10,871 bases of DNA. It comes from a bacterium. GTDB taxonomy: Bacteria; JAMCPX01. The position numbers and the translations under genes are program-made. The notes beneath the pieces are model-generated. The model searched no databases, was not told the DNA's origin, and worked only from the letters and a program-made list of their open reading frames with translations. The stretch covers positions 1 to 10,871 of the forward strand of contig JAJYJX010000080.1 of the NCBI GenBank assembly GCA_021789095.1. Reading direction: 5' to 3'. This document shows, in pieces, positions 1 through 7,023 of the stretch (its first letter is position 1; the number at the start of each line of letters is the position of its first letter).

Positions 1-915
1 CCGATCTAAAGGCAGTAAAAATTTTCTTATGTAAATAAATATCGCCTCGGGTATAAACAGTATAGTCCATAAGAAGCCTTTATTATCAACGAATGCAGTA
101 GCACCTTTATGATAATACCACATTGTATAGGGCACATATACAGCAAGCAGCAACACATAAGGAACAAGCCTTTTTGATATATCTCTTATGCCACGCCTGT
201 TTATGAAATATTCATACGCCGCGAGCACACCAGGAATAGTAACTGCCTGGAACTTGCTCAGGATGGCTGATAGGAAACATATATATGCAATAAAACAGTT
301 GATAAAATTGCTGCGGGTATTTTTTTTATCTGAACGCATATAAAATATAAACCACAGCAGGTAGAACATCATTGCAAGCAGGTCTTTTCTTCCGGAAAGC
401 CATGCTACATTCTCAACCATTAACGGATGCACTGCGAAGAACAGTGCTGTGAAGAATGCTGTTATTGCATGGTTAGATCGAGATGGTATTGAGATTGCTT
501 CGTCGTGTCGCCTGTGCGACGCTCCTCGCAATGACAAGGTGTCATAATCTTCGGGTCGTACGGCATTTAACAGTATTAACGTCACTGCAAAGACAAGCAA
601 TACATTGATCGTCTGCAGAAGCACATTGTCAAGGTGAAAACCCTGAGGGGAATCTTTGCCGTAAAAGTGCCATTCGGTCATGTAGGTAAGGTCAGTAACA
701 GGGAAGTATTCGTAGTAGTACTGTCCCTGAAATATGCCGAGAGGATCAAAAAGATGAACAACCGATGAAATATTCAATTGCTGTATGCGCGGTTTGTTGA
801 GGATGTCTTTGTCATCGTCCCATCCTATAAACCCGTAGCGGGCTGTATGCGCATAGATGGACACGGTGGCTGCAATCAAGATAAAGGCATATATCAATAT
901 TCTTAAACGACGCAT
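1..915 (-). CDS. TMTC/PMT-like GT-C family membrane glycosyltransferase, N-terminal part (3' end outside window)
   Basis: The frame is open without a stop from ATG at 913-915 to the left edge, giving 305 residues of a longer protein. A first hydrophobic segment (about residues 5-22) is followed by an external loop with an Asp-Asp motif in GWDDDKDILN (31-40), the position of the catalytic acidic pair in GT-C enzymes. Further landmarks match the TMTC-type family: YFPVTDLTYM (70-79), GFHLDN (92-97), FAVHPLMVENVAWLSGRKDLL (160-180) and a helix ending RKFLLPL (297-303). Several more membrane helices follow residue 150. Such proteins transfer mannose or another sugar from a lipid-phosphate donor outside the membrane, and relatives carry C-terminal TPR repeats, which would lie beyond this window. 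Residues about 127-142 come from a palindromic repeat and look like an insertion in the loop before the third helix. There is no clear ribosome binding site. The gene is divergent from yajC. The substrate cannot be told from sequence. Confidence 0.8.
   Translation of the reverse strand, partial: MRRLRILIYAFILIAATVSIYAHTARYGFIGWDDDKDILNKPRIQQLNISSVVHLFDPLGIFQGQYYYEYFPVTDLTYMTEWHFYGKDSPQGFHLDNVLLQTINVLLVFAVTLILLNAVRPEDYDTLSLRGASHRRHDEAISIPSRSNHAITAFFTALFFAVHPLMVENVAWLSGRKDLLAMMFYLLWFIFYMRSDKKNTRSNFINCFIAYICFLSAILSKFQAVTIPGVLAAYEYFINRRGIRDISKRLVPYVLLLAVYVPYTMWYYHKGATAFVDNKGFLWTILFIPEAIFIYIRKFLLPLDR
491..535. repeat. Palindromic repeat element (GTCATTGCGAGGAGC...GAAGCAATCTC type) inside a coding frame
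   Basis: The minus strand begins GTCATTGCGAGGAGC, continues through a GTCGC/GCGAC inner stem and ends GACGAAGCAATCTC. The ends pair (ATTGC at 494-498 with GCAAT at 528-532), giving an imperfect hairpin. The sequence strongly resembles the dispersed palindromes that occur in many copies in some bacterial genomes, and resembles in concept the Rickettsia palindromic elements that insert in frame into genes. Here it is read in frame as LSLRGASHRRHDEAIS. Its identity rests on recognition from memory; only this copy is in the window. Confidence 0.75.
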
Positions 916-2230: not shown

Positions 2231-4867
2231 ATGAGGAAGAATATAGTGTGGAGGCTGGTGCTTGTAGGAATGCTCACCGTTATCTCTGTATTCATAATTT
2301 TACCATCATTCATGAACGAACTGCCGGGATGGTGGAAAAATCTTTTTCCATCGGCAAAGCTTAACCTCGGGCTTGATCTTAAGGGCGGGACATACCTTGT
2401 GTTCGGAGTCGACCTGGATAAGGCCGTAAAGGATGATCTGACAAGAAAGGCAAGCGAACTAAAGGGTTCCCTTGATAATAAGAATATTGCTGTTCAGTCA
2501 ATCTCTGTTACCACTGCCGGAGAAATTCACCTCGTCATTTCCAGTGTCAGGGATACAGACAAATTTTTTAATGTTTTAAAAGACGATTTTCCCGATCTTC
2601 AGAAATTGGACACTGTCCAGCCTCCTTCTTTTGTCCTGGCATTGACGAATTCTGAAATAAACTACATGAAAGGGAACATATTGAACCAGGCTGTGGAGAA
2701 CATAAGAAACCGCGTTGATCAGTTCGGAGTTACCGAGCCGATTATCCATCCGCAGGGTAATGATCAGATTGTCGTGGAATTGCCCGGCATAAAGGACCCC
2801 CACAGGGCTATAGAGATTATAGGCAAGACTGCGCAGCTGGAATTTATGCTTGTAGACGAGGCACCGGCATTTTTATCAAACATTGTAAAAGACAGCAAAC
2901 GCCTCCCTGACGGTATTTATACAGGTTCAACGCCTGTAAGTACGCCAAATGGCGAAACTGTCAACAGTCCTTACCTGTGGTCATACAACAAAGATCAGCT
3001 TGTCCAGTTCCTTTCAGACAAAGTACCGCCTCAATATATGGTAGGATACAAGGTGAACAGGGACAGCAATACAAATGTTACCACCTACCAGACGTATATC
3101 CTGGATAAGGATGTTTCAATGACAGGAGATATGCTCACGGATGCAAGGATGGAGATAGGGGGCGAGTACAACCAGCCATATGTAGGGATACGTTTCAACT
3201 CGAGAGGAGCCAGACTGTTTGATCAGCTTACAGCAGCACATGTCGGTGAAAGACTAGCAATAGTACTTGACGATATAGTCTACTCTGCACCGGTCATACG
3301 TGAAAGAATAAGCGGTGGTGTTGCACAGATAACAGGCAACTTTACGGAAGAAGAGGCAAAAGATCTTGCGATAGTGCTGAGGGCAGGTGCGCTGCCTGCA
3401 CCCGTTAAGATACTCATGAAGAATGTCGTGGGCCCAACACTCGGGACCGATTCCATAAGAGAAGGTATGACCGCTGCAATAGTAGGCAGCATTTTTGTAG
3501 TGCTGTTCATGCTTGTTTATTATATCATAGCTGGTGTTATTGCAGACATCGGTTTGATCATAAACGTCGTAATGCTTCTTGCCATACTTGCTTTATTCGG
3601 TGCAACGCTGACCCTGCCAGGGATCGCAGGTATCATTCTGTCTATAGGTATGGCTGTAGACACGAACGTACTGAACTTTGAGAGGACAAGGGAGGAACTG
3701 AAGCTCGGCAAACCGGTAAGAACGGCTGTTGATGCAGGATATGACAAGGCCTTTTACACCATCATCGACTCCCATATTACAACGCTGATCACGGCCATCA
3801 TTCTGTACATATTCGGGACAGGTCCTATAAAAGGCTTTGCAGTGACACTCAGCATTGGTGTTACCCTGAACCTTTTTACGGGACTCTTTGCCACACGGGC
3901 GTTCTTTGATTATCTCAATTCAAGGGTAAGATTGACAAAATTGAAGTTTCTGGAGTTCATAGGCAAGCATGATATCCATTTCATGGAGATGAGGCGGTAT
4001 ACCTATGTAATATCGGGTATCCTGGTTCTGACAGGTATAGTTGCGTGTGTTCAGATAGCAAGGGGTAAGGCCAACATTGGTATTGATTTTGGCGGAGGTA
4101 CATCCGTCCAGATAAAGTTCGAAAAATCTGCTGGAATATCGGACGTAAGAAAAGCAGTTGAAAATGCAGGGATAAACGGTTCAGAGATTCAGGAACTGCC
4201 CAAATTAAATGAGTTTTTAATCAATGTTAAAAAGGTAAAGCACGTCAATGAGAATATAGCGGACAAGATCATAGGTGCGCTCAAGACCGCTTTCCCGGGC
4301 AATAACTTCGATGTTGAAAGTACAAATGAGATAGGTCCTGTCGTAGGTAAGAATTTACAGAAGAATGCCCTCTGGGCTATCATATTTTCCCTGATCGCCA
4401 TAGTAATCTACATAGCATGGCGCTTTGAGTTTAAATTCGGTGTTGCTGCAACCATAGCAACCGCCCATGATGTGCTTGTGGTACTGGGCATCTTTTACCT
4501 TCTTGACAAGGAAATTACATTGCTTATTGTTACAGCCCTTCTGACACTTGCAGGCTATTCTCTTACAGACACCGTTGTCGTGTTTGACAGGATAAGGGAG
4601 AGGTTGAAAACAAGAAAAGGAGAAACCCATGTAGAGCTGTTCAATAGGAGCATCAACGAGGTGCTGAGCAGAACAATTATAACCTCGCTGACTGTTTTCC
4701 TCGTCGTTCTTGCAATGTTTCTGATGGGTGGATCCGTTCTGCATGACTTTTCCCTTGCAATGCTTATAGGTGTGGTCGTCGGAACATACTCATCCGTATT
4801 CATAGCAAGTGCGATTGTTGTAGACTGGATAGGCGAGAAAGGGAAGATATTCCAGAAGAAAAGATAA
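2231..4867 (+). CDS. secDF: SecDF, fused protein-export membrane protein SecD-SecF
   Basis: This 878-residue inner-membrane RND-type protein uses the proton gradient to pull secreted proteins through SecYEG. The SecD half has a first helix (about 5-27), the conserved LNLGLDLKGGTYL (44-56), the P1 periplasmic domain, and five helices from about 415 to 560 including GMAVDTNVLNFERTREEL (473-490, key Asp 477). The SecF half starts near residue 572 with the cytoplasmic FIGKHDIHFM, then a helix (592-610), NIGIDFGGGTSV (615-626), AHD (745-747) and GYSLTDTVVVFDRIRER (775-791, Asp 786/Arg 787). Asp 477, Asp 747 and Arg 787 correspond to residues needed for proton-coupled function in other SecDF proteins. 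SecD and SecF are one frame with almost no linker, as in Bacillus-type SecDF. The start is ATG 2231, given the AGGAG at 2221. The stop overlaps the recJ start in TAATG. Confidence 0.96.
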   Translation: MRKNIVWRLVLVGMLTVISVFIILPSFMNELPGWWKNLFPSAKLNLGLDLKGGTYLVFGVDLDKAVKDDLTRKASELKGSLDNKNIAVQSISVTTAGEIHLVISSVRDTDKFFNVLKDDFPDLQKLDTVQPPSFVLALTNSEINYMKGNILNQAVENIRNRVDQFGVTEPIIHPQGNDQIVVELPGIKDPHRAIEIIGKTAQLEFMLVDEAPAFLSNIVKDSKRLPDGIYTGSTPVSTPNGETVNSPYLWSYNKDQLVQFLSDKVPPQYMVGYKVNRDSNTNVTTYQTYILDKDVSMTGDMLTDARMEIGGEYNQPYVGIRFNSRGARLFDQLTAAHVGERLAIVLDDIVYSAPVIRERISGGVAQITGNFTEEEAKDLAIVLRAGALPAPVKILMKNVVGPTLGTDSIREGMTAAIVGSIFVVLFMLVYYIIAGVIADIGLIINVVMLLAILALFGATLTLPGIAGIILSIGMAVDTNVLNFERTREELKLGKPVRTAVDAGYDKAFYTIIDSHITTLITAIILYIFGTGPIKGFAVTLSIGVTLNLFTGLFATRAFFDYLNSRVRLTKLKFLEFIGKHDIHFMEMRRYTYVISGILVLTGIVACVQIARGKANIGIDFGGGTSVQIKFEKSAGISDVRKAVENAGINGSEIQELPKLNEFLINVKKVKHVNENIADKIIGALKTAFPGNNFDVESTNEIGPVVGKNLQKNALWAIIFSLIAIVIYIAWRFEFKFGVAATIATAHDVLVVLGIFYLLDKEITLLIVTALLTLAGYSLTDTVVVFDRIRERLKTRKGETHVELFNRSINEVLSRTIITSLTVFLVVLAMFLMGGSVLHDFSLAMLIGVVVGTYSSVFIASAIVVDWIGEKGKIFQKKR

Positions 4868-6951: not shown

Positions 6952-6978
6952 CCGTTCCCGCAAAAGCGGGAATAACGG
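6952..6978. repeat. Short palindromic repeat (TTCCCGC-AAAA-GCGGGAA)
   Basis: TTCCCGC (6955-6961) and GCGGGAA (6966-6972) form a perfect 7-bp stem with an AAAA loop; CCGTT and AACGG extend it with a small bulge. It resembles the widely dispersed intergenic palindrome usually seen as ATTCCCGC...GCGGGAAT in proteobacterial-type genomes. It lies between rpoZ and rel and lacks a following T-run, so it is a dispersed repeat rather than a standard terminator, although its transcript could fold. Confidence 0.65.
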
Positions 6979-7023
6979 GAAAATGGAGTTTTAAGGGAGG
7001 GGGAAGGGCCATCAAAGATAATT

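Follow-up and report, generated by a model that had tools for sequence, protein, structure and literature searches.

Probable In-Frame Insertion of a REP-Like Hairpin Repeat in a Loop of a TMTC-Like Membrane Protein

The Hairpin Unit and Its Host Gene

A REP-like, non-autonomous hairpin unit has very probably inserted in frame in a gene for a TMTC-like membrane protein, where it adds a 15-residue loop segment to a protein that probably remains functional. The window (the whole stretch of 10,871 nucleotides that was analyzed) corresponds to contig C12 in a draft genome that totals 2.15 Mb over 203 contigs. The element, GTCATTGCGAGGAGCGTCGCACAGGCGACACGACGAAGCAATCTC, is 45 bp long and occupies exactly positions 491–535 of the window on the minus strand; the minus-strand open reading frame (ORF), which runs from 915 to 1, passes through it without a stop. 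Both the position and the open frame are as the initial annotation had reported. The annotation had also counted about 16 added residues, of which the in-frame addition holds and the number is corrected: the element encodes the 15 residues 128–142 (SLRGASHRRHDEAIS), as the codon of L127 is mostly flank. The features are as follows.

1..915, minus strand: first 305 codons of the gene for a TMTC-like membrane protein (GT-C plus TPR), truncated by the contig end (ORF, orthologs, TPR, overlap with contig C38)
469..564, minus strand: enlarged loop, approximately residues 117–149 (hydropathy, ortholog loop lengths, low-confidence structure model)
491..535, minus strand: GTCATTGCGAG...GAAGCAATCTC hairpin unit (singlet), 45 bp (sequence, covariance model, fold with both stems)
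533..535, minus strand: unpaired 5' tag GTC, preceded by T and so TGTC (columns 1–3 unpaired in the 131-unit alignment)
528..532, minus strand: outer stem 5' arm ATTGC (pairing and compensatory changes)
502..527, minus strand: inner region with GA / GGA..CGA tandem G-A steps flanking the inner stem GTCGC/GCGAC, with an ACAG loop (pair tally, fold)
494..498, minus strand: outer stem 3' arm GCAAT (pairing and compensatory changes)
491..493, minus strand: 3-nt tail CTC (tail tally over 103 units)

The TMTC-like label proposed for the host gene fits the evidence: the window protein has a GWDDD motif (the acidic first-loop motif) after helix 1, and the orthologs are full-length at 580 residues with C-terminal TPRs (TPR matches in ortholog L057). 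The N-terminal half encoded in the window has no Pfam match above the cut-off. The remainder of the gene is located on contig C38 (locus L048), which overlaps the window by 126 bp at 98% identity and continues with 301 open codons. Positions 1–7 of the window (CCGATCT) are identical to the 3' end of a widely used Illumina adapter and diverge there from C38; thus, they are probably a sequencing remnant, and the last codons of the 305-residue ORF (..LDR) are not genuine. Adapter-like sequence at the window start, and a draft in so many pieces for which short repeats are common break points, could suggest a chimera in which the assembler joined the repeat into the gene. This is very improbable, as the ORF continues in frame on both sides of the element at ortholog-like identity and 45 bp should lie well within the length of a read.

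By hydropathy, the element is located between hydrophobic segments 98–116 and 149–167, which bears out the earlier placement between two hydrophobic helices. An AlphaFold model built from four sequences (pLDDT 43) has helices at 95–118 and 146–167; the model is too poor to place the loop confidently and is used as weak support for the helix order alone. Three orthologs of a sister genus (L056–L058), which are 61–68% identical to the window protein, do not have the 15-residue segment. Measured from the invariant LL to TAFF/TAFL, the loop of the window protein has 36 residues and those of the orthologs have 23, 23 and 27; removal of exactly 15 codons leaves 21 residues, near the ortholog lengths. 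An insertion of up to 30 residues with flanks, as the initial annotation had allowed, is not favored, since its removal would leave about 6 residues. The insertion boundary so drawn is a protein-level estimate from the lengths of a naturally length-variable loop, for which an exact DNA-level boundary would take a closer relative; a scan of genome contigs for closer relatives returned the same three sister MAGs and no close genome with an empty site.

Copies in the Source Genome

Exact matches to the 11-mer GTCATTGCGAG number 25 across the 2.15 Mb of the genome, compared to none in the reversed control. A covariance model trained on 19 units and applied with a cut-off of E < 0.4 identifies 39 units, which form 25 elements: 14 inverted doublets, 11 singlets and no direct doublets. 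In all 14 doublets the GTC tags face outward, with spacers of 8–24 bp and total lengths of 72–117 bp. The doublet ends are inverted, and their flanks, inspected by eye and with no empty site for comparison, include no obvious target-site duplication. Exact core matches in coaE (L003) and in an ABC transporter gene (L013) are regarded as chance matches in conserved coding sequence and are not counted.

The window copy scores 48.4 bits (E = 5.6e-8 in its own genome) and is an isolated, intact singlet. A candidate second half of a doublet at 457–467, with about 8 of 11 bases alike by eye, is not significant and was left out. Loop lengths at the position of the element vary within the TMTC-like family, which is what might be expected if the segment were native and ancestral and its likeness to the repeat fortuitous. 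Such a reading is refuted in practice by the copy count, and the E value of the window copy and the orthologs without the residues leave it next to no likelihood. The initial annotation had predicted both further copies in the genome and homologs without the loop residues, and both were found; no unrelated homolog with the same residues was encountered.

Other In-Frame Copies

The source genome has three insertions of the repeat in coding sequence, two of which (TMTC-like and E2) have repeat-free orthologs. In the dihydrolipoyl acyltransferase (E2) gene, which encodes a 2-oxoacid dehydrogenase acyltransferase, an inverted doublet (L018 1501–1583; G000 contig C147) is in frame in the linker that joins the lipoyl domain to the E3-binding domain; four orthologs are without the doublet and are 15–20 residues shorter there. 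The third copy is a singlet (L021 1478–1511; G000 contig C148) that is in frame, as VIARDEVPKQSH, inside an RHS-repeat protein. Each gene uses a different sense-strand frame of the repeat: TCA-TTG (SLRGA) in the window gene, CAT-TAC (HYEE) in E2 and GTC-ATT (VIAR) in the RHS gene. Thus, no special peptide is under selection. Among 30 loci from elsewhere, taken one per genome, two copies reside deep in long ORFs of unrelated genomes, namely L066 (G363, 1010 codons) and L077 (G123, 826 codons), the latter in a gene for an O-antigen ligase/TPR protein. In other genomes, the ORFs that seem to span a copy are mostly short or open-ended, and such copies are not counted as intragenic.

The insert could alternatively have been recruited, with its 15 residues under selection, for example as topology-fixing positive charges or through mRNA structure in the coding region. 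The added residues are charged (RGASHRRHDEA) and reside between two hydrophobic segments, and the window unit also folds as RNA (z = -2.4). Recruitment is nonetheless distinctly improbable, given that the charge of the loop is balanced overall (5 K/R and 5 D/E), that the orthologs manage without the insert and that the host genes are unrelated.

A different palindromic repeat, CCCTCCCTTGACGGGAGGG, is in frame as SPSLDGRDKREGERG in the next loop of the sister ortholog L058 (G004 contig C94, approximately 3085–3130). Its sequence CTCTCCCTCCCTTGACGGGAGGGATAAAAGGGAGGGTGAGAG has 22 copies in G004 and 2 in the genome of the window, with none in the control. Thus, two lineages have each gained a repeat, unrelated to that of the other, in a loop of the TMTC-like protein.

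Structure of the Repeat

The repeat is a REP-like hairpin with a YGTC tag, an ATTGC/GCAAT stem, tandem G-A steps and a covarying inner stem. The base that precedes GTC is T in 66, C in 24, G in 10 and A in 3 of 103 units, so that T or C is found in 90 of the 103. The tails CTC, CTA, CCC, CTT and CTG account for 94 of 103 units (CTC 32, CTA 26, CCC 19), while CCA is found once. In 116 distinct units, 98.8% of the outer-stem cells are paired; the first stem position is A-U in 115 of 115 and the second is U-A in 112 and C-G in 3. Compensatory changes of the outer stem are rare and include G-C to A-T and T-A to C-G. Next to the outer stem, a GA faces a GA with one additional A; a pair follows, often then a second GA/GA, and after that an inner stem of variable length closed by a loop that is mostly 3–4 nt. 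The middle of the unit varies in sequence and length, yet stays a hairpin.

Covariation of the inner arms is evident from two tests. Across 132 distinct units the inner arms form 502 Watson-Crick pairs, compared to 352 ± 13 (maximum 394) when the right arms are reassigned among units. In an alignment of 131 units, 97.2% of the named pairs form, compared to 17–53% with the partners slid, and 75 cells carry double changes where 17.7 are expected, a number reached in none of 500 shuffles. The alignment was fitted to the model and the inner-arm test was not, which makes the latter the cleaner of the two; relatedness among units inflates both.

The loops may point to the form in which the unit is recognized. 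Loops of three nucleotides are GNA in 43 of 66 cases, while the opposite-strand equivalent TNC is found in 1 of 66. Mini-hairpins with GNA and GNNA loops are extraordinarily stable as DNA, and GCGAAGC melts at 78 °C (PMC4686876). Strand-specific GNA loops, together with the conserved and covarying structure, thus suggest recognition as folded single-stranded DNA; the tagged strand would be the folding strand, and DNA, not RNA, would be the selected form.

Pre-adaptation of the repeat to coding was considered and rejected. Open frames number 4.22 of six per unit, compared to 4.19 ± 0.09 in dinucleotide shuffles; thus, the shortness and composition of the unit suffice to explain its openness.

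Relationship to Known Palindromic Repeats

In-frame palindromic repeats are described from Rickettsia, Wolbachia and Methanocaldococcus jannaschii (PMC2996958). GTAG and CGTC REPs are translated in several other species, for which flexible loops and linkers are already proposed (PMC3733652), and a 2024 review still calls a wider occurrence of translated palindromic repeats conceivable (PMC10969869). The novelty that the initial annotation had seen in a spread beyond Rickettsia is therefore already in print (PMC2996958, PMC3733652, PMC10969869). What is new here is the structure of the repeat family, its breadth and its recurrent seeding of loops, not the general claim that such repeats are translated. 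Neither the repeat as such nor its usual translations were found in the literature searched; many relevant papers lie outside that literature, and an earlier description is possible. The few literature matches to the repeat sequence look, judging by their titles, like unrelated primers.

The Rickettsia palindromic elements RPE-1 to RPE-10 are similar in that a palindromic repeat is in frame in unrelated genes and is tolerated in loops. By contrast, they are 105–146 bp and Rickettsia-specific (PMC2229807), while the unit described here is 45 bp and is found across distant genomes; the two are set apart by description. RPE-4 and RPE-6 are themselves CGTC REPs (PMC3733652). The RPE-like behavior suggested in the initial annotation thus stands for the in-frame lengthening of a loop, with orthologs that are without it and at least two more translated copies, but not for the build, as the window element resembles a REP singlet or the half of a REPIN rather than a 105–146-bp RPE-1. 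The Wolbachia palindromic element (WPE) and the M. jannaschii repeats, compared by description only, likewise exemplify in-frame palindromic insertion outside Rickettsia; WPE is reported to be unrelated to CGTC-4 elements (PMC2996958, PMC3733652).

The closest likeness is to the CGTC-tagged REPs of Di Nocera et al. 2013 (PMC3733652). Both have an unpaired YGTC tag (defined there as CGTC or TGTC/CCTC), A-T followed by T-A at the stem base, a predominance of inverted dimers, some units inside ORFs, a 3-nt tail and no transposase beside the copies (here at 20 Y1_Tnp loci from ten genomes). Families 1–4 of the CGTC REPs, however, have an 8–9-bp stem, a 4–5-nt loop and the tail CCA, whereas the present family has a 5-bp stem, tandem G-A steps, an inner stem of variable length and the tails CTC/CTA/CCC. 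As the tag, stem base, dimers and missing transposase agree but the stem, loop and tail do not, the family is regarded as a variant or fifth family of CGTC REPs, separate from the four already published.

GTAG REPs, BIMEs and REPINs, which are associated with RAYT/TnpA-REP, are also short tagged hairpins with inverted doublets and an irregular stem. Recognition as folded single-stranded DNA is known for GTAG REPs. The tag here is YGTC rather than GTAG, and, unlike in the GTAG REP/REPtron arrangement, no RAYT-like gene resides beside the copies in the loci checked.

Other structured sequences are present in the window. A hairpin at 6952–6985, CCGTTCCCGCAAAAGCGGGAATAACGG, has a CGTC/dRS3 look and is located between rpoZ-like and relA/spoT-like genes. 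Three imperfect copies of CCCGTTAGAAAGG/TTCTAACGGGGTAA, partly as inverted repeats, are found at 947–986, 1032–1049 and 1123–1149 upstream of a yajC-like gene and are possibly a local regulatory or terminator-like structure.

Proposed Route of Insertion and Mobility

The insertion in the TMTC-like gene is proposed to involve one REP-like, non-autonomous mobile hairpin unit. The 45 bp, as 15 codons that are stop-free in the frame used, would have left the reading frame intact and lengthened the loop by a 15-residue segment that is polar and charged. The loop already tolerated changes in length, so that the protein probably retained its function and the insertion was kept; any effect of the added loop on the protein, if translated, would presumably be neutral. 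Survival after insertion is expected to need an open frame, and, with harmful insertions purged, the ones that remain would be in loops and linkers.

The family would spread mostly as inverted doublets with the tags outward, and an enzyme that processes single-stranded DNA may recognize the folded unit, as HUH/TnpA-REP enzymes recognize REPs. The TnpA-REP of E. coli recognizes only the folded single-stranded REP, needs the tag and the stem irregularity, and cuts at CT near the hairpin (PMC8266576). The present unit is similar to this substrate in its tag, its stem with conserved irregularities and the CT in most of its tails. Y1 transposases are present in the source genome; no copy of the repeat is found near any of 20 Y1_Tnp (HUH) loci from ten genomes, and thus proximity does not point to a mobilizer.

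The repeat could instead have been copied from elsewhere into this site by recombination, gene conversion or template switching at a stalled hairpin, with no dedicated enzyme of REP mobility. No dedicated transposase adjoins the copies, in keeping with CGTC REPs, which are generally without one (PMC3733652), and a second doublet just upstream of the E2 gene has its right half, CGGCGCCAGGGCGCC, in common with the doublet inside that gene. This route is judged unlikely, if well short of negligible: the window copy is isolated and intact, its flanking bases are common to no other copy, and units genome-wide have conserved termini that suggest defined ends. Insertion of a mobile REP-like unit remains the preferred explanation of the window copy.

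Breadth of the Family and Significance

Among 386 genomes sampled prokaryote-wide, the family with GTCATTGCGAG and GAAGCAATC flanks is found in 76 (about a fifth) and in none of the reversed control. In five genomes (G069, G178, G064, G156 and G194) the number of pattern matches ranges from about 90 to above 400, and in G069 it is 426. Plasmids of Methylosinus, Methylocystis, Calothrix, Halomonas, Novosphingobium and Legionella carry the family when queried with a 34-nt consensus, while a plasmid search with the 45-mer returned one weak match. Tentatively, and with somewhat less than even confidence, the GTCATTGCGAG hairpin may represent a distinct, near pan-prokaryotic REP family that acts as a single-stranded DNA object, is moved by an enzyme for single-stranded DNA and recurrently installs loops and linkers in many phyla.

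The capture of palindromic repeats in frame is a known but thinly documented route to protein loops. As roughly one in five genomes of a broad sample carries the family, how often such insertions arise, where they land and what becomes of them can be measured across phyla. The strand-specific, DNA-like hairpin, in turn, provides a concrete substrate for finding the mover of CGTC-type REPs, which have so far been without one.
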